DNA from: Hydrogenophaga sp.
Lineage (GTDB): Bacteria; Pseudomonadota; Gammaproteobacteria; Burkholderiales; Burkholderiaceae_C
Assembly (NCBI RefSeq): GCF_018780075.1
Contig: NZ_JADMKB010000003.1
Coordinates: 248,001 to 312,000, forward strand
DNA length: 64,000 nt
Direction of reading: 5' to 3'
The notes beneath the pieces are model-generated. The model saw nothing but the letters and a program-made list of their open reading frames with translations, did no database searches and was not told the origin of the DNA. A program made the translations under genes and the position numbers. Shown here piece after piece: positions 26,508 through 62,256 of this stretch (its first letter is position 1; each line of letters begins with the position of its first letter).

Positions 26508-27290
26508 TCAACTCAGACGTGAGCGCACCCAGTTCTGACTACGAAGCATGGCCGGCAGCAATTGCTCAATCATTTCACTGGCGGTCATGCGGTCTGCGCG
26601 GCTTGAAAGGCTCAGCGCACCCACCACAGAGCCCCCGAAGTTATAGAGTGGCACAGCAATAGACCGAACACCTACTTCAATCTCTTCGTTGCTCAACGCA
26701 TAGCCGTTATCAGCGCAGGACACCAAGAGCTTACGAAGGCGCACAGGATCCGTGAGAGTGTGCGGCGTCAGCCGACACAGCGGCATGGCATTGAAAAGTG
26801 ATTCAAAGTCGGCACCCGACTTTGAACTCAATAGCACACGTCCAGTCGCTGAGCAGTGCAGCGGCAATCGTGAGCCAACGCCCAGACCCACCGTCAAACT
26901 CTTGCGTGCGGTAGAGCGAGCCGCAACCATTGCTTCCATTCCATGGAGCACGACCACCGAAGCCGATTCTCGGGTTCGCTCGCTCAAGGCATCCAGCGTG
27001 GGCTGCAACAAGCGAGGCAATCGGGTCGAAGTCGAATACGCATAGGCCAAGCGCAGAACCCCGTGATCAAGCCAGAAGCGTTTGCCATCGGTCCGCGCGT
27101 AACCCCCTTGACACAGTGTCAGCAGACAACGTCGCGCGGCCGCCGGGCTAATACCGACCCGACGAGCTGCCTCAGACGAGGTCAGCCGCGCATGCTCATC
27201 GTCGAAAGCTTCGATCAGGCTCAGCCCCTTGGCGAGGCCGGCGATCAAGTCTTTCTCATGGTTTGGCGGGGGGAAAGAAATCGCATTCAT
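26508..27290 (-). CDS. tphR: IclR-family regulator of terephthalate genes (TphR-like)
   Basis: A 260-residue IclR regulator: winged helix (LTSSEAARRVGISPAAARRC) at about residues 35-75, then the effector-binding domain (SASVVVLHGMEAMVAARS, VGSRLPLHCSATGRVLL, IAVPLYNFGGSVVGALSLS). It is of the PcaR/PobR type. It is divergent from tphC, as in Comamonas sp. E6, where TphR activates the operon with terephthalate. The ATG at 27290 begins the conserved part; an in-frame ATG at 27350 would add 20 residues and overlap the promoter region. Confidence 0.85.
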   Translation of the reverse strand: MNAISFPPPNHEKDLIAGLAKGLSLIEAFDDEHARLTSSEAARRVGISPAAARRCLLTLCQGGYARTDGKRFWLDHGVLRLAYAYSTSTRLPRLLQPTLDALSERTRESASVVVLHGMEAMVAARSTARKSLTVGLGVGSRLPLHCSATGRVLLSSKSGADFESLFNAMPLCRLTPHTLTDPVRLRKLLVSCADNGYALSNEEIEVGVRSIAVPLYNFGGSVVGALSLSSRADRMTASEMIEQLLPAMLRSQNWVRSRLS

Positions 27291-27304
27291 GGGACCGGCA
27301 TCAC

Positions 27305-27357
27305 TTTGACAAGCGTCAAAGATATTTTGACGTTTTTGCGATATGCGCAATTTTGAC
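27305..27357. promoter_or_regulatory. palindrome-rich tphR-tphC control region
   Basis: The gap contains TTTGACAAGCGTCAAA (27305-27320), a perfect 6-bp inverted repeat, and TTGCGATATGCGCAA (27336-27350), and TTTTGAC occurs twice more. These are plausible TphR operators and -35 elements for the divergent genes. The exact binding site cannot be told by eye. Confidence 0.5.
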
Positions 27358-27448
27358 TATATCAACCTCGGGCGACAAACGCACACTACGCCCCGTTTTG
27401 ACGACATGTCTGGCTTGGCCGGACTTCCACCACCCGAGGAGAAAACTT

Positions 27449-28414
27449 TTGAAAAAAATCACGATCTGGATCTGCTCGCTAGCCGCCTCTCTCACCTGGA
27501 CCTGCGCGCAAGCCAACGAATTCCCCAGCAAGTTGCTACGTCTAGTTGTTCCGTTCCCGGCAGGTGGCACGGCCGATGTTCTACCGCGCATCCTGAGTGA
27601 AAAGCTGCGCACCCGTTTCCCGGCTGGCGTGATCGTGGAGAACAAACCTGGTGCAGGCGGAAACATTGGTGCCGAGTTTGTGGCCCGCTCCGAGCCAGAT
27701 GGGCACACATTGCTGGTGTCCCCACCGGGACCCATCGCCATTAATCGCAGCCTGTACGCAAAGCTGACCTACGATGCGAGCCAGTGGGTTCCTGTCACGG
27801 TACTGGCAGCCGTGCCCAACGTCTTGGCGGTCAGCAACCGGCTACCGGTCAAAAATGTGGCCGAGCTCATCACCTACCTCAAGGCCAATCCCGGCACTGT
27901 TTCTTATGCATCGCAGGGCAATGGCTCAACCTCGCACCTGACTGCCAACTTGTTCCAGTCCCTGACCGGAACACAGATGGTCCATGTTCCCTACAAAGGC
28001 ACGGCACCCGCACTGACCGATCTCGCTGGTGGCCAGGTGGATGTCTTCTTTGACAACCTCGGCTCCGCAAGCACGCTGTACAAAGCCGGCAAGATTCGCA
28101 TCCTGGCCGTCGCGGACAGCAAGCGCGCATCTATCGTCAAAGAAGTACCAACCTTTGCTGAAGTCGGCGTCACCGGCATGCAAGCCGTGACTTGGTTCGC
28201 CGTTGTCGCACCACCCGGCACCCCAGCTGTCGTCGTCACGAAACTCAACAGCGCACTGGTCGACATTCTCAAGCAGCCTGAAGTGCAGCAACGCTTTGCC
28301 GAGCAAGGCGCCGAAGCCGTGGGCAACACCTCAGAACAGATGAGCCAATTCGTTCGCGGAGAAGCTGCACGCTGGGCCAAGGTTATCAAGGATTCCAACG
28401 TCACGGTTGACTGA
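27449..28414 (+). CDS. tphC: Bug/TctC-type terephthalate-binding receptor (TphC-like)
   Basis: A 321-residue periplasmic receptor of the tripartite tricarboxylate transporter (Bug) family: a signal peptide (cleaved near CAQA), then [50 protein letters not shown] and [19 protein letters not shown]. The start is a TTG at 27449 after GAGGAGAAAAC; no ATG or GTG suits. The likely partner is the TpiBA membrane pair at 37546-39564. In Comamonas sp. E6, TphC delivers terephthalate to TpiA-TpiB. It is the first gene of the tph operon. Confidence 0.88.
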
Positions 28415-28452
28415 CCGGCGACACATCAACCAGCAAACTCAAGGAAGCGACC

Positions 28453-29691
28453 ATGAAACAGACTCACCCCATCACATGGGAGCGGGGGCTACAAACCCGC
28501 GTACCGTATGCCGTCTACCAACGCCAAGACATTCTTGAACAGGAACAGAAACGCGTCTACGAAGGTCCTGCCTGGAACTACCTCTGCCTGGAAGCTGAGA
28601 TTCCCGAGCCAGGCAGCTATCGCACGACATTTGTCGGCCAAACACCCGTTGTTGTGGCACGCGACATAGACGGCGACATCTACGCCTTCGAAAACCGTTG
28701 CTCCCACCGCGGCGCGTTGATCTGTCTAGAGAAATCCGGTACGGCCAAGGACTTCCAGTGCGTCTATCACGCTTGGACCTACAACCTGCAGGGCACACTC
28801 AAGGGTGTGGCCTTTGAAGCGGGTCTCGACGGTGCCGGCGGCATGCCGCCCTCCTTCTGCAAGGACAAGCACTCCCCGCGCAAACTGCGTATCGCTGTTT
28901 TCTGCGGCCTCGTGTTCGGCAGCTTCAGCGACGAGGTGGACAGCATTGAGGACTACCTAGGCCCAGAAATCTGCTCGCGCATTGAACGTGTGCTGAACAA
29001 GCCGGTGGAGGTTATCGGTCGCTTCACGCAGGCGCTGCCGAACAACTGGAAGCTCTACTTTGAGAACGTCAAGGACAGCTACCACGCCAGCCTGCTGCAT
29101 CTTTTCTTCACCACCTTTCGCCTCAACCGCCTGTCGCAACGCGGCGCGGTGATCGTGAGCGAATCGGGTGGCCATCACGTGAGCTATTCGATGGTGGACG
29201 CGCCGCAGGCCGAAGCAGGCAAGCAATACCAGGAGCAGGGTCTGCGCTCCGACCAAGAGGGTTACAAGCTCGCCGACCCGACCTTGCTGGCCGGCTTCAA
29301 GGAATTCGAGGATGGCATCACGCTTCAGATCCTCTCGGTTTTCCCAGGCTTTGTGCTGCAGCAGATCCAGAACTGCCTTGCCATCCGCCAGGTGCTCCCG
29401 CGCGGGGTGGAAGAAACCGACCTGAACTGGACCTACCTCGGTTATGCCGACGACACGCCCGCTCAGCGTGAAGTGCGCCTCAAGCAGGCCAATCTGATCG
29501 GGCCAGCCGGTTTTGTCTCAATGGAAGACGGTGCCGTCGGTGGCTTTGTTCAACGCGGCATAGCGACCGCTGGCGACGACGAAGCAGTTATCGAGATGGG
29601 CGGTGACAGCACCTCTTCGAGCCCGTCGCGGGTGACCGAGGCCTCGGTGCGCGGTTTTTGGAAGCTGTATCGCCGCCTCATGGATATCTAG
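28453..29691 (+). CDS. tphA2: terephthalate 1,2-dioxygenase, large oxygenase subunit
   Basis: A 412-residue Rieske oxygenase alpha subunit. The Rieske centre is C83-x-H85 (RCSHRGAL) and C103-x2-H106 (CVYHAW). The catalytic iron site is D208, H211 and H216 ([10 protein letters not shown]). The sequence closely follows TphA2 of Comamonas as I recall it, for example [20 protein letters not shown] and [11 protein letters not shown]. With TphA3 and the TphA1 reductase it dihydroxylates terephthalate to 1,2-dihydroxy-3,5-cyclohexadiene-1,4-dicarboxylate. The gene order tphC-A2-A3-B-A1 matches the E6 operon exactly. Confidence 0.93.
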
Positions 29692-29702
29692 GAGCATCTG
29701 AC

Positions 29703-30179
29703 ATGAACAACACTCTTTCACTGCGCGAGCGGATCGCGGCATTTCAGGCGGCCTACATCCGCTGCATCGACACCAACCAACTGGAAAGCTGGCCAGAGTT
29801 CTTTCTGCCTCAATGCCAATACACCGTGACCACGGCCGACAACCAGCGCGACGGCTTGGCCGCCGGCCTGATCTGGGCCAACAACCGCGCCATGTTGCAG
29901 GACAGAATTTCGGCACTGCGCAACGCCAACGTCTACGAACGGCACAGCTACCGCCACCTCGTCGGCCTGCCCTTCATCACTGGCGAGCAGCCTGCAACAG
30001 CCAGTTGCGAAACGCCCTTCATGGTGGCCCGCATCATGCACGATGGGCACACCGACCTCTACTTCACCGGCGTCTATCACGACGAGTTCGACGCTTCGGG
30101 CGATGCCCTGCTCCTGCGCAGCCGTGTTGTGGTGTGCGACAGCAGCCGCGTCGATACCCTGCTGGCCGTCCCGCTGTGA
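29703..30179 (+). CDS. tphA3: terephthalate 1,2-dioxygenase, small oxygenase subunit
   Basis: A 158-residue aromatic-dioxygenase beta subunit (NTF2-like fold): RIAAFQAAYIRCIDTNQLES, DRISALRNANVYERHSYRHL, and a C-terminal VVVCDSSRVDTLLAVPL typical of TphA3. It supports assembly of the alpha3-beta3 hexamer. The ATG at 29703 follows TAGGAGCATCTG, 11 bp after tphA2. The stop overlaps the GTG of tphB. Confidence 0.92.
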   Translation: MNNTLSLRERIAAFQAAYIRCIDTNQLESWPEFFLPQCQYTVTTADNQRDGLAAGLIWANNRAMLQDRISALRNANVYERHSYRHLVGLPFITGEQPATASCETPFMVARIMHDGHTDLYFTGVYHDEFDASGDALLLRSRVVVCDSSRVDTLLAVPL

Positions 30180-31132
30180 TCTCACAGGCTGTTCGAATTG
30201 CATTGCCGCTGGGTGACCCCAACGGCATCGGACCGGAAATTGCGCTCAAGACAGCCGCAGCCTATGCGGGACGTCCCGACGTTTTCCTGACGCTGTTCGG
30301 GCCACAGGTTGTACTTCAGCAGACGGCGCAGTGCCTTGGGCTGACTGACCTGTTGGCCGCCACGCCAGTGGTATTCACAGCGGCCATGCCGACCGGGACC
30401 TTCCAGCCTGGACGGGTGTGCGCAGAGGCTGGATCGGCCATGATCTCGGCTGCCAGCTCTGCCATCACCGCCACCCGGCGTGGCGATTTCGATGCGGTGG
30501 TGGCCGGCCCGCACCACGAAACCGCCGTGCATCTGGCAGGCATCCCTTTTTCGGGCTACCCCTCGCTGGTGGCAAGTGTCTGCGGCCAGCCCGAGGACAG
30601 CGTATTTTTGTTACTGGTGGGCGGCGGCCTGCATATCGTGCATGCGACGCTGCACGAGAGCGTGCAGCACGCTCTCGACCGCCTGACGTCTGAACTGGTC
30701 GTGCAGGCTGCTCTGGCCGGCATGCGCGCCATGCAGCGCCTGGGCATGAACGCGCCGACCATCGGTCTGTTCGGCATCAATCCGCATGCAGGTGAAAACG
30801 GCCTGTTCGGAGATGCGGACGAGCGCATCACCAAGCCGGCCGCCGAACGCCTGCGCGCCGTCGGCCTACAGGTAGATGGCCCTATTGGGGCAGACACTCT
30901 GCTGGCGGAGCGCCGCCACGACTTGTATGTCGCCATGCTGCATGACCAGGGCCATATCCCGATCAAGCTGTTGAGTCCCAAACAGGCCAGCGCCTTGTCA
31001 ATCGGTGCCGACGTGATTCTGTCCAGCGTGGGTCACGGCAGCGCTATGGATATCGCTGGCCAGTGCATTGCCGATGCCAGGGCCATGATCAATACCGTCG
31101 CTCGGCTTGCTGCCGTGCCGGTCCCAACCTGA
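30176..31132 (+). CDS. tphB: terephthalate dihydrodiol dehydrogenase, PdxA family
   Basis: A 318-residue PdxA-family dehydrogenase. Family blocks are LPLGDPNGIGPEIALK, VAGPHHETAVHLAGIPFSGY, GINPHAGENGLFG and MLHDQGHIPIKLL, which hold the metal-binding histidines. TphB oxidises and decarboxylates the terephthalate dihydrodiol to protocatechuate, using NAD and zinc. A PdxA homologue inside a Rieske operon is the hallmark of terephthalate loci. The GTG at 30176 overlaps the tphA3 stop and gives the expected length (the Comamonas protein is about 315 residues). True pyridoxal synthesis is unlikely in this context. Confidence 0.9.
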   Translation: MISQAVRIALPLGDPNGIGPEIALKTAAAYAGRPDVFLTLFGPQVVLQQTAQCLGLTDLLAATPVVFTAAMPTGTFQPGRVCAEAGSAMISAASSAITATRRGDFDAVVAGPHHETAVHLAGIPFSGYPSLVASVCGQPEDSVFLLLVGGGLHIVHATLHESVQHALDRLTSELVVQAALAGMRAMQRLGMNAPTIGLFGINPHAGENGLFGDADERITKPAAERLRAVGLQVDGPIGADTLLAERRHDLYVAMLHDQGHIPIKLLSPKQASALSIGADVILSSVGHGSAMDIAGQCIADARAMINTVARLAAVPVPT

Positions 31133-31140
31133 ACCATTCA

Positions 31141-32169
31141 ATGACGAATCAGATCAAGATCGAAGGCAGCGAAGTCGCCTTCTCCTGCGAGCACGGCGAG
31201 ACTGTTCTCGATGCCGCCACACGAAACGGTATTGAACTGCCTTATTCGTGTCGCAAGGGCGTATGCGGCAATTGCCGCGGTCTGGTGCTCGAAGGCCAAC
31301 TGGTGCCAAGCACCGCAGGCGGAAGTGCCGAGGCCGGCATTCACGCGCCCAACGAGCATCTGTTCTGCCATGCACAGGCTGCCAGCGACTTGCTGATCCG
31401 GCCGCGTAGTTGGCAGCGCATCGACCCGGATGCGCGCAAGACCCTGCAAGCCAAGGTATTCCGCGTGACGCAGGCGGCCAGCGACGTGACCGTGCTGCAA
31501 CTGCGCTTTGCCGCCGGCATGCGTGCGAAGTTCCTGGCCGGTCAGTACCTGCAGGTAGTCCTGCCCGATGGCCAGCGCCGCTCTTACTCCATGGCCAATG
31601 CGCCGCATGAGAGTGATGGCGTGCAGTTGCATATCCGTCATGTGCCCGGTGGCCACTTCAGCATGGACGTCTTGCCCGGCCTCAAACCTGGCGACTTCTT
31701 GCAGCTCGAATTGCCACATGGCGATTTCTGGCTGCGCGAGGACAGCGAGCGCCCCTTGGTCATGGTGGCGGGCGGTACCGGATTTGCCCCGCTCAAATCG
31801 ATCATTGACCACATGGTGCGCCGCAAGATCTGGCGCCCACTGACGCTGTACTGGGGGTCGCGCCTGCCCGAAGGCCTCTATGCCCAAGAGACTATCGCCC
31901 GGTGGCAGCAGGGCCAGCTACGCGATCTGCGCTACGTACCGGTCGTCAGCGAAGTCGGCAATGACGTATTGTGGCGAGGCCGTACCGGCCTTGTTCACGA
32001 AGCTGTACTCTCGGATGAGGCCGACCTGAGCGGTCATGACGTTTACGCCTGCGGTGCTCCGGCCATGGTGGCAGCACTACGGCGCGCCTGTATCGAGCAG
32101 CGGGGCTTGCCGGAACAACGATTTTTCAGTGACGCCTTCGTAAGCCAGGCACTCCATGGAACTCGGTAG
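31141..32169 (+). CDS. tphA1: terephthalate dioxygenase reductase
   Basis: A 342-residue reductase with an N-terminal plant-type [2Fe-2S] domain (YSCRKGVCGNCRGL), an FAD domain (RRSYSMANAP) and an NAD domain (VMVAGGTGFAPLKSIIDHM). It passes electrons from NADH to the TphA2A3 oxygenase. The domain order matches Comamonas TphA1. It lies 8 bp after tphB. Immediately after its stop begins a diverged fragment of a relaxase 3' end, so the operon ends at a recombination junction. Confidence 0.92.
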   Translation: MTNQIKIEGSEVAFSCEHGETVLDAATRNGIELPYSCRKGVCGNCRGLVLEGQLVPSTAGGSAEAGIHAPNEHLFCHAQAASDLLIRPRSWQRIDPDARKTLQAKVFRVTQAASDVTVLQLRFAAGMRAKFLAGQYLQVVLPDGQRRSYSMANAPHESDGVQLHIRHVPGGHFSMDVLPGLKPGDFLQLELPHGDFWLREDSERPLVMVAGGTGFAPLKSIIDHMVRRKIWRPLTLYWGSRLPEGLYAQETIARWQQGQLRDLRYVPVVSEVGNDVLWRGRTGLVHEAVLSDEADLSGHDVYACGAPAMVAALRRACIEQRGLPEQRFFSDAFVSQALHGTR

Positions 32170-32361: not shown

Positions 32362-33141
32362 TCAACTGGTCACCGCACCAGCTTTCGCCGAGAGTTCGCG
32401 TGAAGCATCAAGCAACAACGCCACGATCTGCCGCACGCGCACGTCATCCAAGCGCGCGCTCGGGCCATAGACTGCAAGGGACCCAATCACCTTGCCTGCG
32501 GCGGTACTAAACGGCACTGCCATGGCCACCGCGCCCTTGATAAGCTCGTCTCGACTGATGGCGTAGCCAGCCTCTCGGATACGAACCAGTCCTTCAAGGT
32601 ATGCCGGCTGCTGATCGGGCGGCACTTTACCGTCGAGGTAGCTGGCCGCGTCCTTTACAAAGGCTAGGATCGCTCGCCCGCTCGCACCCAGGATCACACT
32701 CTCACTGTGTCCCACTCCACGCTTGAAGCTTAGCGGCTGCGGACTGGGAATTTCCGCCACGCAGACCCGCTCCCGGCCATGGTGAACCAGCAGCGCAACG
32801 GTCTCGCCAGTCTGCTCCCACAGGCGGCGCATCATGGGCTGCGACAACTCCGCCAAGTCTAAGCCTGAGGTCCAGACGTGGGCTAGGTGTGCCACCGAGG
32901 GTCCGAGTTGGAAGCGCTGCGGCTCGCCCGCAGCCACTATGAAGCCACGCAACTCCAGGGTCTTCAGCAGACGATAAAGGGTGGGCCGGCTCAAGTCGAC
33001 ACGCCGCAAAAGTTCGCTTGCGCTCAGTTGCCGGTCGCCCGCCCGAAAGGCCAGCAGGATGTCAAGCGCGCGATCCACCGAGCGCACCCCCTCCCCCGAT
33101 TTCTCTGCTGGAGCCCAACTGACGGTGCTTTCGTTACTCAT
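32362..33141 (-). CDS. iphR: IclR-family regulator of the isophthalate genes (IphR-like)
   Basis: A 259-residue IclR regulator: helix-turn-helix (RQLSASELLRRVDLSRPTLY, residues about 33-70), then the ligand domain (VALLVHHGRERVCVAEIPS, SVILGASGRAILAF, AVPFSTAAGKVIGSLAVYG). It is divergent from iphA, with a palindrome and a clear promoter in the gap. In Comamonas sp. E6 an IclR-type repressor IphR controls iphACBD. The ATG at 33141 gives the family-length protein; an ATG at 33234 would extend into the promoter. Confidence 0.8.
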   Translation of the reverse strand: MSNESTVSWAPAEKSGEGVRSVDRALDILLAFRAGDRQLSASELLRRVDLSRPTLYRLLKTLELRGFIVAAGEPQRFQLGPSVAHLAHVWTSGLDLAELSQPMMRRLWEQTGETVALLVHHGRERVCVAEIPSPQPLSFKRGVGHSESVILGASGRAILAFVKDAASYLDGKVPPDQQPAYLEGLVRIREAGYAISRDELIKGAVAMAVPFSTAAGKVIGSLAVYGPSARLDDVRVRQIVALLLDASRELSAKAGAVTS

Positions 33142-33199
33142 GATCGTCCCGACTACTTTGTGCTGGTAGGTGGTGATTGTACGAAATACGTCCATCAGG

Positions 33200-33214
33200 C
33201 GGACATCTTGTCCG
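33200..33214. promoter_or_regulatory. candidate IphR operator
   Basis: CGGACA-TCT-TGTCCG is a perfect 6-bp inverted repeat, six bases upstream of the -35 of the iphA promoter and upstream of the regulator start, a suitable place for an IclR protein to control both directions. Confidence 0.5.
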
Positions 33215-33220
33215 TTTTCT

Positions 33221-33248
33221 TTGACATGAATCAAACGATCCAGATAAT
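33221..33248 (+). promoter_or_regulatory. sigma-70 promoter of the iph operon
   Basis: TTGACA at 33221-33226, 16 bp, then GATAAT at 33243-33248, close to consensus. The predicted start of transcription is about 35 bp before the iphA ATG. Confidence 0.65.
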
Positions 33249-33290: not shown

Positions 33291-34565
33291 ATGAACAAGG
33301 AAATGTCTGAAACGCTTACCCGCGTCGGTCCCGGCACGCGCATGGGCAACCTGCTGCGCCGCTACTGGGTGCCAGCGCTGATGTCGAACGAGATCGCCGA
33401 GTCGGATAGCCCGCAGGTACGCGTGCAACTGCTGGGCGAAAAGCTGCTCGCGTTCCGCAACTCCGACGGCAAGGCCTGCTTGATCAGCGAGTTCTGCTCC
33501 CACCGCGGTGTGTCGCTGTACTTCGGCCGCAACGAGGAAAACGGCATTCGCTGCGCCTATCACGGCGTCAAGTTCGATGGCATGGGCCAGTGCGTGGACG
33601 TGCCGTCATCGCCCCAGGCTTGCGCCCGGATGCACATCAAGGGCTACCCCTGCATTGAGCGCGGCGGCATCGTTTGGACCTACATGGGTCCGGCCGACCA
33701 ACAGCCTGCAGCGCCTGAACTTGAGTGGTGCACGTTGCCACCCGAGCATGTGTTTGTGTCCAAACGGCTGCAGTATTCGAACTATCTCCAAGCTATGGAA
33801 GGCGGCATCGACACCGCGCACGTGTCATATGTGCACAGCTTCGAGGTGGACGGCGACCCCATGCACCAGGGCGTCAAGGCGCTGGACTACATCAAGGCCG
33901 ACGGCAATGTGAGCTTCGAGATCGAAAAGCAGCCCTTCGGACTGAGCCTGTTCGGCCGTCGGCTGGGCGAGCCCGACTCCTACTACTGGCGCATCACGCA
34001 GTGGTTGTTCCCCTGGTTCACACTGATCGCGCCATTTGGCAACCACGCGCTGGGAGGCCATGTTTGGGTGCCGATCGACGACCACAACTGCTGGGCCTGG
34101 AGCATCAACTGGCAGCCTGATCGACCGCTCACGGCCGAGGAGCGCACCGCGATGGAGGCCGGCAAAGGCATCCACGTCGAATACGAGGCACCGGGCAGCT
34201 ATATCCCGAAATTCAGCCGCGACAACGACTACGGCATGGATCGCCAGGCCCAAAAGGACAAACGTTCCTATAGCGGCATCTTCGGCTTCGCGGCCCAGGA
34301 CTACTCGTTACAGGAAAGCATGGGCCCCATCCAGGACCATGAAGCGGAAATGCTGTTGCCAACCGACAAGGCCATCGTGATGGCGCGGCGCATGCTGCAC
34401 GAAGCCGCATTGGGCTTAGAGCAAGGCGACACACCGCCAGCGCTGAACGCCAGCGAGCAACACGTGCGTCCTGCCGGCGTGCTCCTGCCCCGAAACCAGG
34501 ACCCCGTCGAATGGGCTCGCCAGAACCTAGCCGATGCCACTAGCAAGCCGGTCTTCAGCCTTTGA
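33291..34565 (+). CDS. iphA: isophthalate dioxygenase-like Rieske oxygenase
   Basis: A 424-residue Rieske oxygenase of the phthalate-dioxygenase type, which has no beta subunit. Rieske ligands are C69-x-H71 (FCSHRGVSL) and C88-x2-H91 (CAYHGVKF). The iron site is D174, H177 and H182 (GIDTAHVSYVH). The order regulator, oxygenase, Bug receptor, SDR dehydrogenase, FMN reductase matches the iphACBD operon of Comamonas sp. E6, so isophthalate is the likely substrate. A phthalate or substituted benzoate cannot be excluded from sequence alone. The ATG at 33291 follows AGGAGACCCCAA. Confidence 0.75.
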   Translation: MNKEMSETLTRVGPGTRMGNLLRRYWVPALMSNEIAESDSPQVRVQLLGEKLLAFRNSDGKACLISEFCSHRGVSLYFGRNEENGIRCAYHGVKFDGMGQCVDVPSSPQACARMHIKGYPCIERGGIVWTYMGPADQQPAAPELEWCTLPPEHVFVSKRLQYSNYLQAMEGGIDTAHVSYVHSFEVDGDPMHQGVKALDYIKADGNVSFEIEKQPFGLSLFGRRLGEPDSYYWRITQWLFPWFTLIAPFGNHALGGHVWVPIDDHNCWAWSINWQPDRPLTAEERTAMEAGKGIHVEYEAPGSYIPKFSRDNDYGMDRQAQKDKRSYSGIFGFAAQDYSLQESMGPIQDHEAEMLLPTDKAIVMARRMLHEAALGLEQGDTPPALNASEQHVRPAGVLLPRNQDPVEWARQNLADATSKPVFSL

Positions 34566-34606
34566 AGACATCTATTGCCATCCCTACGACAACAAGGAGA
34601 CAACCC

Positions 34607-42452: not shown

Positions 42453-42475
42453 CACTGTGTTCTCCGTGCCCATGC

Positions 42476-42796: not shown

Positions 42797-42819
42797 GGTC
42801 GCTCCAGACTTTCCTGTGC

Positions 42820-43965: not shown

Positions 43966-44027
43966 CGTGGTCATCCTTTCAAGATTGCATTGAAGATTGC
44001 GCTGAATGCGTGCCATGATGTTAGGCA

Positions 44028-44045
44028 ATACATTGATCGATGTAT
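44028..44045. promoter_or_regulatory. palindromic operator candidate in divergent gap
   Basis: ATACAT-TGATCG-ATGTAT is a perfect 6-bp inverted repeat, and ATCGATGT recurs 11 bp later (near 44047-44054). It lies between the Rieske oxygenase gene and the HTH/citrate-synthase gene, the natural place for the latter's binding site. Confidence 0.5.
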
Positions 44046-45388: not shown

Positions 45389-45411
45389 AGCGGCACGCCG
45401 ACGCGCTGCGT

Positions 45412-46302: not shown

Positions 46303-46404
46303 GATTTGAATTCTAGTTCTCTCCAATATCGATTGGACAGAGATTCCACACCAAGTGATCATCTCCGGACTGAACAAGGTCAAACACAGAAAGGTAGAGA
46401 ACTC

Positions 46405-48021: not shown

Positions 48022-48067
48022 TTCGACGCCCCCTTTCCCGTCAAAAAGTACACATGGAGACATCAGC

Positions 48068-49060: not shown

Positions 49061-49123
49061 CGCCCACCTGGGCCGGTTGCTGCTCGTCAGATACCGGCCC
49101 TTTTGCATTCACAAGGGATCAAC

Positions 49124-51726: not shown

Positions 51727-51813
51727 TCGCGCCCGGGCCAAGACATCTGACTCAATCGATTCAGAGGGAAGGAGGCTCTGTCACGATAAGGCCTTGCTGG
51801 GACAATAGGCTAG

Positions 51814-54882: not shown

Positions 54883-55632
54883 TTATTTCATCAGGAGCAG
54901 CAAAGACAGCGCCACCAACAAACTCAGCAATAGATGCCGAAATACTTTGTCGCTCAGTCGATGACGGATCGTCCTACCGATTTGCAAACCGACAAACATG
55001 GGGATCAACGCAAGACAAGACAGTCCGACCTCCGAAAAACCGAACCGCCCATACAACAGCATGGCGCCATACATTGGTACTGCACCAATCAGGTAGATGA
55101 TGCTGATGGAACCAACAAACTCTTCCCGACGAAGCCTGAGAGCCAGGAGATAAGTGATCAGTATCGGACCGGTGAGGGAGGAAACGCCGGCCATCGCGCC
55201 GGCAATCACACCTACCAACGGCCCCATCCAGCGCTCCTTCTGACGATCAATGTTGAATGATGTCCCGAGCAGCATCATTCCCACCGCCGCCATCACGACC
55301 AGCGCCAACAACATGTTGAAACCCTGCACAGAGAGGTTCCTGGTGAAGTGGATCGCAGCAATCGTCGCGACAAACTGACCAACCAGCAACCCACCGAAGC
55401 GCTGAAATCCCTCACGCAGTTTCTGTCCCTCTATGGACTGCCATAGGTTGGAGAGCAGAACTGGCATGACGAGCAGCCCCATCGCTTTGGGCGCTGGCAG
55501 AAGTAGCGACAGCAAGGGAACCACGACGAGCGGCAAACCCACCCCAAGGGTTCCCTTGACCACGCCCCCGAGCACCACGGCGCCAAAGCAAGCGATCCAA
55601 AGTGCCATAGAAGGCATGGCATCTTGAAACAT
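54883..55632 (-). CDS. TSUP (TauE/SafE) family permease
   Basis: A 249-residue membrane protein with about eight hydrophobic helices and the TSUP/TauE-SafE pattern (GVVKGTLGVGLPLVVVPLLS near the start; GAMAGVSSLTGPILITYLLA in the second half). TSUP proteins move sulphur-containing or other organic anions. The start overlaps the stop of the Bug receptor gene (TGATG), so receptor and permease are made together. Possible roles are phthalate uptake or export of an acidic product. Confidence 0.82.
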   Translation of the reverse strand: MFQDAMPSMALWIACFGAVVLGGVVKGTLGVGLPLVVVPLLSLLLPAPKAMGLLVMPVLLSNLWQSIEGQKLREGFQRFGGLLVGQFVATIAAIHFTRNLSVQGFNMLLALVVMAAVGMMLLGTSFNIDRQKERWMGPLVGVIAGAMAGVSSLTGPILITYLLALRLRREEFVGSISIIYLIGAVPMYGAMLLYGRFGFSEVGLSCLALIPMFVGLQIGRTIRHRLSDKVFRHLLLSLLVALSLLLLMK

Positions 55633-56603
55633 CACTCGGCTTTGAGTTCCGCGTGTTTGCCCGCCTTTGCCATGGCTTGGTTCTCCAGCTCAATGACTTT
55701 GCGGTAGGCGTCGCCATTGGCACCGACGGACTCGATACCGGCGGTCTGGAACTTCTCGACGACGTCCGGCAATTTCACGATCTGAGCGATTTCATCGGAG
55801 ATCCTCTTGGAAATCTCTGACGGCGTGCCGGTGCGGGCAAGCACCCCTACGCTGACCGAAAAGTCAAAGCCTGGGATCGTTTCATTGATCGATGGCACAT
55901 CGGGCACGGACGCCGAGCGCTTGGCCGCGTTGCTGGCCAGCAAAACAACTTGACCGCTTTTCACAAAGCCCTGCATGGACGGCAACGCGGCAAACAAGAC
56001 GTCCACCTGTCCACCGACCAATGCCGGCACAGACTGACTCGAACCGCGGAAGGGGACGTGAACCAGAGACAAACCGAGATCCGCCTTCATAGCTTCCATC
56101 GTGAGGTGGTGCGTGCTTCCGATCCCCGACGACCCATAGGTGAAGGCACCAGGCTCCTTTTTAACGCGCGCGACGAACTCCTGGAAAGTCTTGACGCCGG
56201 TCTTGGGGTGCGCCACCAGGAACAAGGGCGAGCGTGCAATCAGCGATACGGCCTGAAGGTCCTGTCCGACCGCGTACTTGGCGGCCTTGTTGATCTGCGG
56301 TGTGATCGAAAGCATGGAGCCATCGGAAACGATGAAGCTGTAACCATCGGCAGGCAACGCGTTCAGGGTCTGAACCGAGACGATACCGTTGCCCCCCGGC
56401 TTGTTCTCGACCACGAAGCCCTGCTTCATGCGCTCGGAAAGCTTTTGGGCAATGACACGCGCCACCGTGTCTGGCAGGCCGCCCGGTGCATAAGGCACGA
56501 TGAACTTGACTGGACGGTTGGGGTAATCGCCAGCCTGTGCCAGCACGGCACCAGATGCAAGGAGCGCGCTCATGGCAAGTGCTGCAAGGATTCGTCGTTT
56601 CAT
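55632..56603 (-). CDS. Bug/TctC-type receptor, probably for phthalate
   Basis: A 323-residue periplasmic Bug receptor: signal peptide ending AVLAQA, then VKFIVPYAPGGLPDTVARVI, FVVENKPGGNGIVSVQTLN, GIGSTHHLTMEAMKADLGL and LVHVPFRGSSQSVPALVGGQ. It is divergent from the phthalate reductase gene with a shared MarR-type palindrome between them, so phthalate is the probable ligand. Its stop overlaps the start of a TSUP permease rather than a TctAB pair, an unusual pairing. Confidence 0.85.
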   Translation of the reverse strand: MKRRILAALAMSALLASGAVLAQAGDYPNRPVKFIVPYAPGGLPDTVARVIAQKLSERMKQGFVVENKPGGNGIVSVQTLNALPADGYSFIVSDGSMLSITPQINKAAKYAVGQDLQAVSLIARSPLFLVAHPKTGVKTFQEFVARVKKEPGAFTYGSSGIGSTHHLTMEAMKADLGLSLVHVPFRGSSQSVPALVGGQVDVLFAALPSMQGFVKSGQVVLLASNAAKRSASVPDVPSINETIPGFDFSVSVGVLARTGTPSEISKRISDEIAQIVKLPDVVEKFQTAGIESVGANGDAYRKVIELENQAMAKAGKHAELKAE

Positions 56604-56697
56604 GGTTTGTCTCCGTAAGTGAGGTTGATGAGATGAAGAAAGCAGAACAGCATCTGTGCACCCCTTTTTAGGGGAGATGCGCGACTGCTTGTTTTTT

Positions 56698-56711
56698 CTT
56701 AGAAATCTAAG
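56698..56711. promoter_or_regulatory. predicted MarR-type operator, site 1
   Basis: CTTAGAAATCTAAG is a perfect 6-bp inverted repeat in the divergent gap between the Bug receptor and ophA1. Its near twin (CTTCGATATCTAAG) lies upstream of ophA2 at 61912. Both are likely targets of the MarR-family regulator encoded at 58976. Confidence 0.65.
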
Positions 56712-56790
56712 ATAATTGATTTTTCCCACTTGCTTGATCTTTGTCAAGAGTAGGTACCCATCAACTTCGCTGCGTAGAAACACTTACACC

Positions 56791-57753
56791 ATGACTGCAA
56801 ACGAGACAATGCACCCCCTCCTCATCACTCGAAAGGAGGTCATCGCCAAGGACGTCTTTCTCTTCGAGTTGAAGTCTCTGGACGCGTCACCGCTGCCCAG
56901 CTTCACGGCCGGGGCTCACATCGCGGTCCAGGTGCCCAATGGCTCTATGCGCCACTACTCGCTGTGCAGCGACCCTGGCCGAACAGACCTCTATCAACTC
57001 GCGGTCAAACGCGAAGATGACGGCAGGGGGGGATCCAAGAGCTTGATCGACGGGGCGAACGTCGGCGACACGCTTTTGACCGGCACCCCTAGCAATCTGT
57101 TCGAGCTCAGCGAAAAGGCCAAGAGCTTCATCCTCGTGGCCGGTGGCATCGGCATCACACCCATGCGAGCGATGATTCACACCCTCGAAGCCGAAGGCAT
57201 AAGGAGCTTCAAGCTCTACTACCTTGCACGCACGCCAGAATCGGCCGCCTTCCTGGACGAACTGAGTGCCCCCGAAATGAAGGGGAAGGTCGCCATCCAC
57301 CACACTTACGGCGACCCGTCGAAAACCTTCGATCTCTGGTCTGTCTTCGAGAAACCCGTCGCTGGCACGCATGTCTATTGCTGCGGCTCCAAGCGACTGA
57401 TGGATGAAGTCAAGGATATGACGGGTCACTGGGCCAGCAGTGCCGTGCACTTCGAGAGCTTCGGAGCTGATACGAAACCGCACCCCGACGACAAACCCTT
57501 CGAAGTCGAATTGGCCAGAACGGGCATGAAGGTCGTCGTGCCAGCCAACCGAAGCATCCTGGATACCCTGCGCGAGCATTCCATTCGAGTGCCCAGTTCT
57601 TGTGAGAGCGGAACGTGCGGCTCTTGCAAGGTGCGGCTGCTCAAAGGCGAAGCTGACCATCGGGACCTGGCCCTGCTCCCTGAGGAGCAGGAGGACCACA
57701 TCATGGTGTGCGTCTCCAGAGCGAAGTCGAACACCTTGGTGCTTGACCTGTGA
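56791..57753 (+). CDS. ophA1: phthalate dioxygenase reductase
   Basis: A 320-residue reductase in the order FMN (RHYSLCSDPGR), NAD (FILVAGGIGITPMRAM) and C-terminal plant-type [2Fe-2S] (SSCESGTCGSCKVRLLKGEA). This is the phthalate 4,5-dioxygenase reductase layout and matches the length of Burkholderia OphA1 (about 320). It carries electrons from NADH to the OphA2 oxygenase encoded at 60539. The GTG of ophB overlaps its stop. Related to IphD at 36377 but clearly distinct. Confidence 0.87.
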   Translation: MTANETMHPLLITRKEVIAKDVFLFELKSLDASPLPSFTAGAHIAVQVPNGSMRHYSLCSDPGRTDLYQLAVKREDDGRGGSKSLIDGANVGDTLLTGTPSNLFELSEKAKSFILVAGGIGITPMRAMIHTLEAEGIRSFKLYYLARTPESAAFLDELSAPEMKGKVAIHHTYGDPSKTFDLWSVFEKPVAGTHVYCCGSKRLMDEVKDMTGHWASSAVHFESFGADTKPHPDDKPFEVELARTGMKVVVPANRSILDTLREHSIRVPSSCESGTCGSCKVRLLKGEADHRDLALLPEEQEDHIMVCVSRAKSNTLVLDL

Positions 57754-58967
57754 GCCCCTCAGTGAATCCCCACAAGCAGCCCATCAGGCTCGGTGTCCTG
57801 GGTCTTGGCCGTGCCTTCACCCTGATGATCCCGACGCTCAGCAAGGATCCGCGCGTCGCGCTGGCCGCCTGCTTCGATCCGAATGCTGGCGCCACCGCAG
57901 CCTTTGCCAAAGCGTTCGGCGGAGTGGCGCACACATCGGCCGAAGCGCTTTGCGCCGATCCGAACGTTGAATGGATCTACGTCGCCACACCGCATCAGTT
58001 GCATGAGGAGCATGTGCGACTCGCGGCGAGCCAAGGCAAGCACGTGCTGGTCGAGAAGCCCATGGCTTTGTCGCTTGCAGCATGCGCCCGCATGCAGGCG
58101 GCTTGCGAACAGGCGGGCACGCAAATGATTGTTGGCCACAGCCACAGCTTCAACGCGCCCGTATCGCATGCCAAGGCACTCATCGAGTCAGGTCAATGGG
58201 GCCGTGTCTGCATGATTCACGCCATGAACTTCACGGATTTTCTCTACCGTCCCAGGCGTCCGGAAGAATTGGATACAGCGAAGGGCGGTGGCGTCGTCTT
58301 CAGTCAGGCCGCGCACCAAGTCGATATTGTCCGGCTGCTGGCGGGCGGTGACGTCAGTTCCGTTTATGCAAGAACCGGATCATGGGACCCGACACGGCCC
58401 ACCGAAGGTGCGTACACCGCGATACTGAACTTCCGCTCAGGCGCGTTTGCCAACGTGACCTACAACGGCTACGGCTTCTTTGACAGTGACCCGTGGATGG
58501 CGGGCATCGGGGAAATGGGCTGGCCCAAAGACGTCAACACCCATCGGCTAACCCGGGAAAAGCACCTGGCGACGAAGGACGAGGCGGCCGAGGCCCGCCG
58601 GAAGGCGAATCGGAATTTTGGTGGTCAGGACTATGTGCCGGACGTTCGGCCATCGCCCGCCGCCTTTCAACACTTCGGCCCGGTCATCGTCAGCTGCGAG
58701 CATGCCGATCTGCGTTTGACTCCTTACGGCGTGGAGATTCACGACACGCATGGCGTGTGCCTGGAGGCCCCGCAGCGCGGACCGGTGCCTCGCTTTGAGG
58801 TTGTGGACGAGTTGTGGTCGGTGGCCCGAGATGGGACCCCTCCAGTCCACTCAGGGGCGTGGTCCGCAGCAACGATGGAGGTCTGTCTGGCGATTCTCGA
58901 ATCGGGCAAGAAAAGAGAAGCTATCATTCTGGAGCATCAAGTCCCAGTCCCGCCGCTTCGGCTTTGA
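57750..58967 (+). CDS. ophB: phthalate dihydrodiol dehydrogenase, Gfo/Idh/MocA family
   Basis: A 405-residue Gfo/Idh/MocA oxidoreductase: N-terminal Rossmann fold (RLGVLGLGRAFTLMIPTLSK), HVLVEKPMALSLAACARMQ (the family EKP lysine) and QAAHQVDIVRLLAGGDVSSV (the catalytic His/Asp region). Enzymes of this family (Pht4/OphB) oxidise cis-4,5-dihydrodiol-phthalate to 4,5-dihydroxyphthalate with NAD. The start is a GTG at 57750 overlapping the ophA1 stop, giving a reductase-dehydrogenase pair. Confidence 0.87.
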   Translation: MSPSVNPHKQPIRLGVLGLGRAFTLMIPTLSKDPRVALAACFDPNAGATAAFAKAFGGVAHTSAEALCADPNVEWIYVATPHQLHEEHVRLAASQGKHVLVEKPMALSLAACARMQAACEQAGTQMIVGHSHSFNAPVSHAKALIESGQWGRVCMIHAMNFTDFLYRPRRPEELDTAKGGGVVFSQAAHQVDIVRLLAGGDVSSVYARTGSWDPTRPTEGAYTAILNFRSGAFANVTYNGYGFFDSDPWMAGIGEMGWPKDVNTHRLTREKHLATKDEAAEARRKANRNFGGQDYVPDVRPSPAAFQHFGPVIVSCEHADLRLTPYGVEIHDTHGVCLEAPQRGPVPRFEVVDELWSVARDGTPPVHSGAWSAATMEVCLAILESGKKREAIILEHQVPVPPLRL

Positions 58968-59539: not shown

Positions 59540-60532
59540 TCAAATACTGTAGCTTTCGTAGGTCGACGGGTCGAAGAGCTCGTCTAACCCCACCCTCCTG
59601 CATGACAGCCCCTGCGCATGATGGTGATGCAGGAACGCCTCGAGAGTCTTTCGATTCGGCCCTACGCCATAGGACCAGAAGTCCTGTCCCAGCGTTTCAC
59701 GCGCTGCCTTGAGCTGTTCCTCCACAAACGGCAGGGTCACCTTGGTGGCCGAGGTGTCCGCCAGCAGCTCCAGGGCTTTCGCCTTGGATTCGCTGAATGC
59801 CTTGAACACAGCGCCCGGCAGCCAGCGGTTCTGTTCTGCCAACTCCTTGCGGATACCCACCACGTGCATGATCGGAAAGATGCCCGTCCGCTTGTAGTAG
59901 TCCTTGGCCACCGCCGTCGGGTCGTCGAAAAGCCAGGCCACATCCGGGTTGGTCAGCGCAGCACCACTGGGTGGCCTTGGCGCAATGAATGCGTCAATTT
60001 CGCCCGTGTTCAGCATGTCCGAGATGGTCCGCATCTCCGGGGCCGCTTCAACCTTCACACCTGCAGGCAACTCCAGCTTGATCTTCTCCGGGCGCCCGGG
60101 CGTGTCAATCCCGCCCCTGACCCAGGTCACATCCTCCGGTCGTATCCCGTAGTCATCCTGCAGGATCGAGCGCGCCCACACGATCGCCGTCAGCTGGTAC
60201 TCCGGCACCCCGATTCGGCAACCCTTGAGGTCCTCCGGCTTGCTGATGCGATCTTTTCGCACATAGATGGAAGTGTGGCGAAAAGCACGCGAAAGGAAAA
60301 CGGGAACCGCGATGTAAGGGCTTTCACCCTGGGCGTGTTTAACCAGGTAGCTGGAGAAGGAAAGCTCCGTGATGTCGAAGTCCCGGCTTCGCATGGCGCG
60401 AAAGAACATCTCCTCAGGGTTCAACAGCATGTATACCGGGTCGCATCCATCAATTTGGACGCGCCCGTCGTACAAGGCCCGATTGCGGTCGTAGTCGCCC
60501 ATGGCGACTGATAGTCGTAGCTTGGTCATCAA
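59540..60532 (-). CDS. ophC: 4,5-dihydroxyphthalate decarboxylase
   Basis: A 330-residue protein with a substrate-binding-protein fold, typical of Pht5/OphC decarboxylases: LRLSVAMGDYDRNRALYDGR, LNPEEMFFRAMRSRDFDITE, HTSIYVRKDRISKPEDLKGC, RIGVPEYQLTAIVWARSIL and a His-rich C-terminal EAFLHHHHAQGL. It has no signal peptide, so it is a cytoplasmic enzyme. It removes one carboxyl from 4,5-dihydroxyphthalate to give protocatechuate. It begins 6 bp after the ophA2 stop, making an ophA2-ophC operon. Confidence 0.9.
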   Translation of the reverse strand: MMTKLRLSVAMGDYDRNRALYDGRVQIDGCDPVYMLLNPEEMFFRAMRSRDFDITELSFSSYLVKHAQGESPYIAVPVFLSRAFRHTSIYVRKDRISKPEDLKGCRIGVPEYQLTAIVWARSILQDDYGIRPEDVTWVRGGIDTPGRPEKIKLELPAGVKVEAAPEMRTISDMLNTGEIDAFIAPRPPSGAALTNPDVAWLFDDPTAVAKDYYKRTGIFPIMHVVGIRKELAEQNRWLPGAVFKAFSESKAKALELLADTSATKVTLPFVEEQLKAARETLGQDFWSYGVGPNRKTLEAFLHHHHAQGLSCRRVGLDELFDPSTYESYSI

Positions 60533-60538
60533 GTCAGC

Positions 60539-61858
60539 TCAGGCAGTGACAACATAAGAACGGTCCATCTCTGGATTGTCCTGACCCTCAAGCCAGACAT
60601 AGCTCGTCTCGAAAGCGCGCCAGTCCACGGTCTTTGGAATGACACCCTGGAACGAGCACACTTCATTCGGTATACGGTTCACACCACCACCGATGACTTC
60701 GCCGGTTTTCTGGAAGGCCTGAACTGCCTCGACCATCTGCTTGCGGAACTCGACGATGGCCATGTCGCTGGCGCCCAGGCGGTCGTGACTTCTGTCCGCG
60801 ATCTTGCCCATGGTGATCCACATGGCCATGTCCTGATTCGGAATGCCGGAAATACCGGTGAAGTTGCCACTCTTCATCGCTTGGCGGTCCTGCCAGTACC
60901 TGTTCTCGTAGTTGCGCAGCGGGCGATATTGCTCATCCAGATCGACGCCAACCGTCTGGCCCAAGAACTTGCGCCAAGTGGCTGTTTCCGGGGTCTGCGA
61001 GGGATGCCCCCAGCCGATGAAGTAGAAGCACGTGTTGGTGTCGTCTACCGGCACGTTCACGTTCGCCACGTTGTAAAGGTTGTTCGGTGGAATCAGCACC
61101 GTCCAGGGCGCAACGAAAACCGTCGTGCGAACGTAGTCGTGCGTCTGGGCATTGAAGATGGGGCGCCGCACGGCGGCGTAACGGAAGCCGAACTTCGCGC
61201 GCTGCACTTGCATCCTCGGTGCCTTGTCGGTGGACGGACGCAGCCAGTTCTTGTCGGTGGCTTTCGCACCGTCGACGCGTGCAGGAACCATGTCCGAACT
61301 GTGCAGGCTCGAGCTGTGCGCGGAATCAATAGCACCTTCAAGAATCTGCGCCCAGTTCACGGGGATGATCACCTTGGCGACGCTCACCCGTGTTTCCGCA
61401 GTGGGCGCCCACCGGGGTGGCTCAAACTCCGGCATGGTTTCAGCCGCACCCATGTAGGCCCAGACAAAGCCACCCCATTCCTTGGTGGGGTATGCCTTGT
61501 GTTTGACTTTTTCCAGCATGCCACTGGCTTCCGGCTCGGAGGACATCTCGGTGACATTGCCCGCCACGTCCATCTTCCAGCCGTGATAGAGGCAGCGCAA
61601 CCCACCCTCCTCGTTCCGGCCGAACACAAGGGATGCTCTACGGTGCGGGCAGTACTCGTCCATAACGCCCACTTGCCCTTCGGTGTTTCTGAACACCACG
61701 AGGTCTTCACCGAGGATGCGTGCTTTGACAGGGGTTCCGTCAGGCTCCGACACCTCTTCAATCAGACAGATCGGAACCCAGTGTCGACGCATCAGTTGCC
61801 CCATCGGGGCACCGTTTTCAACGCGGCACAGCAGATCGTTTTCTTCATGCGTAATCAT
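60539..61858 (-). CDS. ophA2: phthalate 4,5-dioxygenase oxygenase component
   Basis: A 439-residue Rieske oxygenase of the phthalate dioxygenase type. Rieske ligands are C70-x-H72 (EYCPHRRAS) and C89-x2-H92 (CLYHGWKM). The iron site is D178, H181 and H186 (AIDSAHSSSLH). The length equals that of Pht3/OphA2 proteins, and the partners OphA1 (56791), OphB (57750) and OphC (next gene) complete the 4,5-pathway. The ATG at 61858 follows CAGGAGAGTTCC. A predicted MarR operator lies 54 bp upstream. Confidence 0.9.
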   Translation of the reverse strand: MITHEENDLLCRVENGAPMGQLMRRHWVPICLIEEVSEPDGTPVKARILGEDLVVFRNTEGQVGVMDEYCPHRRASLVFGRNEEGGLRCLYHGWKMDVAGNVTEMSSEPEASGMLEKVKHKAYPTKEWGGFVWAYMGAAETMPEFEPPRWAPTAETRVSVAKVIIPVNWAQILEGAIDSAHSSSLHSSDMVPARVDGAKATDKNWLRPSTDKAPRMQVQRAKFGFRYAAVRRPIFNAQTHDYVRTTVFVAPWTVLIPPNNLYNVANVNVPVDDTNTCFYFIGWGHPSQTPETATWRKFLGQTVGVDLDEQYRPLRNYENRYWQDRQAMKSGNFTGISGIPNQDMAMWITMGKIADRSHDRLGASDMAIVEFRKQMVEAVQAFQKTGEVIGGGVNRIPNEVCSFQGVIPKTVDWRAFETSYVWLEGQDNPEMDRSYVVTA

Positions 61859-61911
61859 GGAACTCTCCTGTAAGGATGGGTAAGTGCAAGAAGGCACTGC
61901 GCCGCAGTATA

Positions 61912-61925
61912 CTTCGATATCTAAG
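61912..61925. promoter_or_regulatory. predicted MarR-type operator, site 2
   Basis: CTTCGATATCTAAG differs at only two positions from the CTTAGAAATCTAAG palindrome at 56698. It lies in the promoter region of the leftward ophA2-ophC operon. Confidence 0.6.
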
Positions 61926-62010
61926 TATTTTTTTAAGGGTTATCCCTTGCCACCTCCTCTGCACTGTCTCTTCGTCTCGCAAACCACCTAGGGTGAAGGC
62001 CCTCTACAGC

Positions 62011-62256
62011 ATGAGAAAGCTTCCATACAAATTTAGTTCTCTCGCATTTGCGTTCTACATGGCAACCATCATCGCCTTCATGATGTGTCTGCTCCTGACG
62101 GCAATCAACACCGGAATCGACGCTCGGTTCATTCAACGGGTACTGGGAACCTATGTGATAGCAATGCCAGTGGCCTTCGCATGCGTCATCTTGGTACGTC
62201 CGCTTGTCCTCTATCTCGTATCAAAGACCGTGGCCACGAAAACAGGTGACATCTGA
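62011..62256 (+). CDS. DUF2798-like small membrane protein
   Basis: An 81-residue protein with two hydrophobic helices (SLAFAFYMATIIAFMMCLLL and VIAMPVAFACVILVRPLVLY) separated by a short polar loop, the DUF2798 pattern. Function unknown. It is divergent from ophA2. The 255 bp after it (62257-62511) hold no recognisable gene and contain the right edge of the cargo. Confidence 0.65.
   Translation: MRKLPYKFSSLAFAFYMATIIAFMMCLLLTAINTGIDARFIQRVLGTYVIAMPVAFACVILVRPLVLYLVSKTVATKTGDI

Follow-up and report, generated by a model that had tools for sequence, protein, structure and literature searches.

A probable integrative and conjugative element at icd in Hydrogenophaga sp. with predicted routes for three phthalate isomers

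Phthalic acids are the acids in polyethylene terephthalate (PET) plastic and in plasticisers, and an organism using all three isomers requires a distinct gene set for each, together with an importer. According to the passages available from a 2026 review, transposases or integrases frequently surround phthalate clusters, so that mobility as such is expected (PMC13040137). The same passages place the TpiBA membrane pair of Comamonas sp. E6 away from tph and iph, state that TpiBA-type pairs are able to serve several binding proteins, and describe transport as a limiting step when the terephthalate pathway was moved by hand (PMC13040137). The Tn4371 family of mobile elements is defined, in the available part of its description, by an integrase more than 70% homologous to the intTn4371 protein, maintenance and transfer genes of similar kind and order, and 8-bp TTTTTCAT-type repeats, several members being listed without repeats (Ryan et al. 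2009, PMC2789088); degradative integrative and conjugative elements (ICEs) of this family in the table excerpted from a 2023 review concern biphenyl and toluene only (PMC9960961). The DNA considered here is a 64,000-nucleotide window of Hydrogenophaga sp. (assembly GCF_018780075.1, 5.39 Mb in 191 contigs; positions 248,001 to 312,000 of contig NZ_JADMKB010000003.1, here C38). We conclude, at a probability of about 0.82, that the window lies in an ~94.4-kb ICE at icd carrying a package of putative terephthalate (tph), isophthalate (iph) and o-phthalate (oph) genes, the cargo having been built in steps. A preliminary description, made from the window alone, had proposed that routes for all three isomers lie on one ICE, a view now supported by att-like repeats at icd, a close copy in a second genome (G038) and related elements in three further genomes.

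Extent and backbone of the element

The phthalate block occupies positions 26505-61897 of the window (G000:C38:248001-312000), and the integrated element would span 94,386 bp (C38:231594-325979, window -16406 to 77979), overhanging the window by ~16.4 kb to the left and ~14 kb to the right. The proposed end repeat comprises 16 bp of the icd 3′ end (ACATGTTRTCGATCAT), with one mismatch (position 8) between the two copies. The right-end 16-mer, counted over 236,035 of the 344,035 bp of C38, occurred once exactly (325964), once with one mismatch (231594), never with two and once with three. In eleven 20-kb control stretches (G047, G004, G029 and G025) only the icd end of G047 matched at two mismatches or fewer. 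This icd end and the left copy are the same sequence, with G where the right copy has A. When C38:208001-344035 was searched with exact 14-mers from the icd junction, no direct repeat and two inverted matches appeared, both away from the ends; the two copies of the core differ by one mismatch, and the core was found once mismatches were allowed. C38 aligns colinearly with the G047 chromosome as far as 156977 and then from 325963 onward (93.6% and 92.5% nucleotide identity in the largest pieces), and contains ~169 kb of extra DNA relative to it. We infer that the left and right repeats are attL and attR, respectively, and hence the exact left end. Of 66 genus genomes, four have integrase homologues (E ≤ 1e-120), in each case adjoining icd, and an ARAGORN scan of the window and of seven relative loci returned no tRNA. 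The ~74.6 kb between the colinear chromosome and attL (C38:156978-231593) is apparently a second island at the same place.

The cargo lies between a relaxase and a LysR gene, as the preliminary description had it, in a backbone whose identifiable genes within the window are as follows.

13672..16401, + strand, ParB-type partition gene (Pfam ParB_N, 26.6 bits, cut-off 26.3; the pPNAP01 element has an annotated ParB in the corresponding position)
21100..21945, + strand, RepA replication initiator (Pfam RPA, 295 bits)
22130..22828, + strand, ParA partition ATPase (NF041546, 269 bits, cut-off 180)
23672..24235, + strand, TraF-type pilin-processing signal peptidase (TIGR02771, 74.6 bits, below the cut-off of 100)
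24381..26462, + strand, RlxS-type relaxase (DUF3363, 477 bits; NF041267, 653 bits, below the cut-off of 850)
62512..63444, + strand, LysR regulator ahead of traG/trb, in the TraR position (like position in G004, G006, G014, G038 and G039)

To the right of the window the LysR gene is followed by TraG, TrbB, C, D, E, J, L, F, G and I, the integrase and then icd, TrbJ being assigned by position only, as its stretch has no convincing Pfam match. The relaxase, TraG, trb and integrase genes are all open reading frames. The locus thus combines a relaxase, a coupling protein and a type IV secretion set with an integrase and flanking att repeats, as expected of an ICE, attL being weaker than attR. An EexN gene, which the preliminary description had placed beside LysR, was not confirmed: the four small open reading frames at 61876-63954 comprise one DUF2798 and three without a Pfam match.

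The label 'Tn4371-type' given in the preliminary description holds for the maintenance and transfer genes and fails for the integrase and the attachment site. The gene order ParB, RepA, ParA, TraF, RlxS, LysR, TraG, TrbB, C, D, E, L, F, G and I follows that of the family, and RlxS is 67.9% identical to the pPNAP01 relaxase. The integrase, in contrast, shares 26% identity over 399 amino acids with the Tn4371-like integrase of pPNAP01 (a stand-in for intTn4371). As a candidate attachment site, TTTTTCAT is absent from the + strand of C38:150000-327000, and its reverse complement occurs three times, none at an end. Judged by these sequences, the element is a Tn4371-like backbone with another integration module, and it falls outside the published family definition. 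A single copy of GATTTTTAAG at C38:157147 resembles the ICEKKS102 att site given in the available part of the 2023 review (PMC9960961).

Predicted phthalate routes and importer

The tph (26508-32169), iph (32362-37351), TctB/TctA (37546-39564) and oph (56716-61897) genes recognised in the preliminary description are all present as open reading frames, and homology to solved and family proteins indicates that they encode the proposed routes to protocatechuate. Identities to solved proteins were counted on printed alignments. The terephthalate genes form a compact cassette.

26505..32145, tph cassette, 5.64 kb (96.0% nucleotide identity to the H. pseudoflava unit, in a different slot)
26508..27350, − strand, tphR, IclR-family regulator, PcaR/PcaU/PobR-like (TIGR02431, 270 bits, below the cut-off of 285)
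27263..28414, + strand, tphC, TctC-type terephthalate-binding protein (TctC; best PDB match 8hka, periplasmic terephthalate binding protein)
28453..29691, + strand, tphA2, terephthalate dioxygenase large subunit (7vju, 289/403, 72%)
29658..30179, + strand, tphA3, dioxygenase small subunit, true start probably inside the reading frame (NF041685, 138 bits, below the cut-off of 230)
29813..31132, + strand, tphB, PdxA-like dihydrodiol dehydrogenase, domain from ~30190 (TIGR00557, 211 bits, residues 128-430; Pfam PdxA)
31063..32169, + strand, tphA1, ferredoxin-reductase, domain from ~31150 (BenC/AntC-type matches below cut-offs)

The second PDB match of TphA2, 7q04, is a named terephthalate dioxygenase (TPADO), and TphA2 keeps eight of eight TPADO residues at aligned places (H210, H215, D356, R309, I290, N224, S243 and R390). 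In the available part of the TPADO study, H210, H215 and D356 are iron ligands, R309 and I290 contact the substrate, and N224, S243 and R390 occur only in the terephthalate enzyme among five characterised relatives (PMC9060491). TphA2 is found at ≥99% identity in 3 of 66 genus genomes and as a homologue (E ≤ 1e-120) in 22. The 118-bp 3′ end of rlxS (26355..26472) is repeated at 74% at 32154-32271, beyond tph; the cassette looks as if it arrived with the rlxS end of another element.

The isophthalate genes and a membrane pair follow directly.

32362..33234, − strand, iphR, IclR-family regulator (family match)
33291..34565, + strand, iphA, isophthalate dioxygenase oxygenase (9ina, 378/424, 89%)
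34562..35587, + strand, iphC, TctC-type binding protein (TctC, 247 bits)
35594..36373, + strand, iphB, SDR-type dihydrodiol dehydrogenase (family matches)
36377..37351, + strand, iphD, ferredoxin-reductase (family match)
37546..38034, + strand, tctB, TpiB-like membrane protein (PF07331, 65 bits)
38053..39564, + strand, tctA, TpiA-like membrane protein (PF01970, 518 bits)

The assignment to isophthalate draws on the 89% identity of IphA to the solved protein 9ina, which we take to be an isophthalate enzyme, and on the order iphACBD, presumably that of Comamonas sp. E6. The PDB names of 7vju, 9ina and 7fjl are all generic ('Rieske (2Fe-2S) domain protein'), and the substrates of 7vju and 7fjl, matched by TphA2 and OphA2, are likewise our assumption. 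The window proteins scanned include a single TctB/TctA pair and four TctC proteins (tph, iph, middle block and oph), the last three being 38, 39 and 28% identical to the tph TctC, respectively. By analogy with TpiBA, TctBA would be a shared importer carried on the element. A hemerythrin-domain gene (39627-40178) follows tctA; hemerythrin genes also adjoin phthalate-oxygenase-like genes on the plasmids pACP3.2 and pPNAP04.

The o-phthalate genes occupy the right part of the cargo.

53494..54342, − strand, nadC-type quinolinate phosphoribosyltransferase (TIGR00078, 309 bits; same neighbour on pPNAP04)
55632..56783, − strand, TctC-type binding protein (TctC match)
56716..57753, + strand, ophA1, phthalate dioxygenase reductase (PDR/VanB oxidoreductase in the like cluster of pPNAP04)
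57750..58967, + strand, ophB, Gfo/Idh-type dihydrodiol dehydrogenase (family matches; pPNAP04)
59540..60532, − strand, ophC, 4,5-dihydroxyphthalate decarboxylase (PDB 9jp7, so named, E 1.1e-168)
60539..61897, − strand, ophA2, phthalate 4,5-dioxygenase oxygenase (7fjl, 339/437, 78%; LigXa_C, 546 bits)

The oxygenase, reductase, dehydrogenase and decarboxylase of a phthalate 4,5-dioxygenase route are thus found together, OphC giving no Pfam or NCBIfam match over cut-off. A TauE-type gene lies with oph, besides nadC and TctC, and a like group on the Polaromonas plasmid pPNAP04 comprises nadC, oxygenase, decarboxylase, TctC, reductase and dehydrogenase. In Burkholderia cepacia DBO1 a nadC homologue reportedly protects against phthalate inhibition.

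Two further features, both absent from the preliminary description, separate tctA from oph.

40789..51726, homogentisate-type block between tctA and oph
51810..52972, − strand, IS5-family insertion sequence with inverted ends (NF033581, 354 bits)

The block encodes a ferredoxin reductase, a Rieske oxygenase, a citrate-synthase-like protein, LysR, an FAD monooxygenase, TctC, HmgA (642 bits, cut-off 511) and fumarylacetoacetase (499 bits, cut-off 375), the last two above curated cut-offs. A like block resides on the Acidovorax carolinensis plasmid pACP3.2 (81.9% nucleotide identity over 39% of the 24.5-kb query). On the likeliest reading of these genes it handles an aromatic acid opened through homogentisate; PDB searches with the FAD monooxygenase and the citrate-synthase-like protein gave no substrate.

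Ring cleavage of protocatechuate appears to be supplied from outside the element. The genome has five LigB-family genes, all on other contigs (C93, C168 (two), C189 and C123; the search covered the LigB family), and one C168 gene is a candidate protocatechuate 4,5-dioxygenase (NF009903, 547 bits, cut-off 317). A recipient would probably have to supply ring cleavage itself.

Related loci and competing explanations

IphA is found at ≥95% identity in 5 of 67 genus genomes (own included) and at ≥84% in 19. The iph, tct and oph core occurs in five genomes, three of which have the homogentisate-type block and three the tph cassette (matches covering <25% or <40% of the query protein were left out of the relative-locus listings). 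Five IphA-like matches lie on one contig of G028, and five also on plasmid NZ_CP044550.1 of Hydrogenophaga sp. BPS33.

The closest relative, G038 (MAG-206), has the order rlxS-tph-iph-tct-IS5-oph-LysR-trb-int-icd, and the preliminary description's rlxS-tph-iph-tpi-oph order therefore recurs with trb-int-icd at its right end; as the gene order is repeated in other assemblies, chance is not an issue. In this copy 24 of 25 two-kb bins are 87.6-99.7% identical to the window element (cargo 95.0-99.7%, with the IS5 bin at 91.8%; traG-trbI 89.1-94.5%; int/icd 87.6%), whereas the G038 chromosome beyond icd is 71-77% identical. G038 lacks the middle block up to the left end of IS5, and a deletion adjacent to the insertion sequence is therefore likely. 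G039 (MAG CROMO_BS_123_1, 62% complete) has iph-tct-middle block-oph and no tph was found in it. G006 (Hydrogenophaga sp. NFH-34) is rearranged on two contigs, both ending in IS5 pieces, with no tph found at E ≤ 1e-120. In G004, a single-contig genome, the rlxS-LysR slot of a related backbone is filled by ~21.5 kb of different genes (C1:3342263-3363798).

G014 (H. pseudoflava CZa25-1) carries its genes on three contigs, C20 (oph/trb), C4 (oph-tct-iph-rlxS) and C17 (parB...tph), which by synteny would be ordered C20-C4-C17. The outer flanks of C20 and C17 are joined in four of four empty-site genomes (G001, G013, G016 and G066, picked from 13 searched), and a 14-bp direct repeat (TTCGATCTTGTAGC) stands at both ends of the element, in a glyoxalase-family gene, with an integrase-family gene at the C20 end; these data place tph (C17:12757-18397) inside the G014 element. 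This element thus has all three routes, an attachment site that differs from icd, and tph in a different slot. The tph unit is 96.0% identical to that of the window over 5,641 bp, iph bins are 90-95%, oph bins 70-82% and the bin running from ophA2 into LysR 88% identical. A suspected break in the G014 tctA was dropped, one frame being open for 497 codons.

Several observations weigh against the proposed ICE. attL is the weaker end, its core having been found by seeking the best near-match, and a wider local alignment of both ends scored 30, the 95th percentile of 200 random stretches, so that attL rests on the short core. A further 74.6 kb of other extra DNA lies left of attL, and the left junction is unreadable against the empty chromosome. 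The G038 contig starts inside the element, with the left end out of view, and to the left of about window position 9500 the element has no match in any of the ten relative stretches compared. One G038 backbone bin reaches only 82.7%, which, like the unequal identities of tph, iph and oph to G014, indicates that parts of the element have different histories. Excision and transfer rest on comparative evidence and the routes on homology, as do the substrate assignments, with many NCBIfam matches below curated cut-offs. An element that holds a real cargo and is no longer self-transmissible, owing its spread chiefly to helper elements or to homologous recombination among ICE backbones, would fit the bin-by-bin variation in cargo and backbone identities, the 74% rlxS-end repeat flanking tph, which suggests recombination between elements, and the related relaxases in 15 of 66 genus genomes (RlxS homologues at E ≤ 1e-60). 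This explanation is nonetheless unlikely, given that the relaxase, TraG, trb and integrase genes are all open and that G038 and G050 share the same integrase-icd junction.

Errors of binning or assembly, by which a plasmid was joined to the chromosome, deserve thought in a genome of 191 contigs with a backbone type common on plasmids, yet they are highly improbable in view of the trb-int-icd junction in the separate assemblies G038 and G050 and of an icd-end repeat that fits site-specific integration. Scarcely credible is an old chromosomal phthalate region merely adjoining ICE genes: att-like repeats enclose the cargo, which has rlxS on one side and traG on the other, the chromosome of G047 runs on uninterrupted in its absence, a different set of genes fills this slot in G004, and G038, G039, G014 and G006 contradict the idea. 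Such regions do exist, as in G025, whose 196-kb contig C71 has nadC-oph-tph-iph side by side (TphA2 72%, IphA 84% and OphA2 77% identical); its first 80 kb gave no match to the ICE backbone, and the genome has no RlxS homologue (E ≤ 1e-60). Loci with iph and no ICE backbone are common among the best 80 of 113 IphA loci from named species genomes (per-gene identity thresholds; own record possibly left out). Within those 80 loci, ICE backbone lies within 10 kb of iphA in L074, L075 and L078, L076 being the rearranged NFH-34 copy; tph adjoins iph in L074, L080 and L090, and L130, from outside Hydrogenophaga, has oph next to iph. The preliminary description had named a fixed chromosomal relic as the case that would overturn it; this is rejected on the G038 copy, so much closer to the window element than is the surrounding 71-77% chromosome, and on the related elements elsewhere. 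In G025, C71:8182-53596 is a dense aromatic-acid region with oph, tph, iph and further Rieske oxygenase-like and ophC-like genes.

In the preferred reading, an ICE at icd, the tyrosine integrase next to attR would excise the element, RlxS and the TraG/Trb system would transfer it, and RepA/ParA/ParB would help maintain it, as their families suggest, with the cargo set between rlxS on one side and LysR/traG on the other. A dedicated TctC would capture each isomer, and the common TctBA pair would bring it into the cell; a separate Rieske dioxygenase for each (TphA1A2A3, IphAD or OphA1A2) would then dihydroxylate it, and TphB, IphB or OphB with OphC would convert it to protocatechuate, which an enzyme encoded elsewhere in the genome would open. 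The cargo may have been assembled stepwise from an iph, tct and oph core, the homogentisate-type block and the 5.64-kb tph cassette, the last in two slots. We infer excision, transfer, substrates and order of assembly from sequence comparison. Tentatively, and with somewhat less than even confidence, a Hydrogenophaga ICE lineage can be viewed as a dedicated phthalic-acid element still being assembled under plastic-monomer exposure, with one backbone, two or more integration modules (for icd and for a glyoxalase-family gene), a shared importer, and tph added in two slots.

PADLOC models, the only evidence used here, place three anti-phage systems inside the ICE: AbiEi/AbiEii and JetABCD type II (Wadjet), together at C38:231838-242151, left of the window, and Gabija.

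4753..9083, + strand, Gabija, gajA 4753-7305 and gajB 7305-9083 (PADLOC GajA 1021 bits, GajB 830 bits)

Comparison with known systems

With enzymes and a likely importer on one element, a recipient already able to open protocatechuate could gain three substrates at once, and the three-isomer ability can probably spread as one package. Variants in five genomes provide a testable record of how the package is put together, and two of the carriers, H. pseudoflava CZa25-1 and Hydrogenophaga sp. NFH-34 (no tph found in the latter), are named strains.

In the open-licence literature, as far as its accessible passages go, no report of a phthalate ICE, or of a three-isomer ICE, was found. Tn4371, ICEKKS102-4677, ICEbphKF708/KF712 and ICETn4371-6054 share the RepA-ParA-ParB-TraF-RlxS and LysR-traG-trb modules and likewise carry catabolic cargo in slots that vary; the present element differs in its integrase (26%), its repeat at icd instead of TTTTTCAT, and its phthalate cargo. 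Elements of Ralstonia solanacearum MolK2 and the second element of Diaphorobacter sp. TPSY are described, in the passages available, as also joining stability and transfer genes of the Tn4371 kind to an integrase region unrelated to that of Tn4371 (PMC2789088). The phn island of Delftia acidovorans Cs1-4 also places an oph cluster on a mobile island, but the passage available lists phn, oph and pmd with no terephthalate or isophthalate set, and the island is said to have no core in common with known ICE families (PMC9960961). Phthalate and terephthalate genes occur together on plasmids in the pad/pat/tpa islands of Rhodococcus jostii RHA1, which differ in that the passage names these two isomers only and in being actinobacterial and on linear plasmids (PMC13343209). 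Comamonas sp. E6 has the same three routes and a TpiBA-type transporter, in separate operons (PMC9060491) and with tpiBA elsewhere (PMC13040137) according to the available passages, whereas here all lie on one element. What the present analysis adds is the three-isomer package on a probable ICE with both ends proposed; the modular catabolic ICE itself is a known kind.

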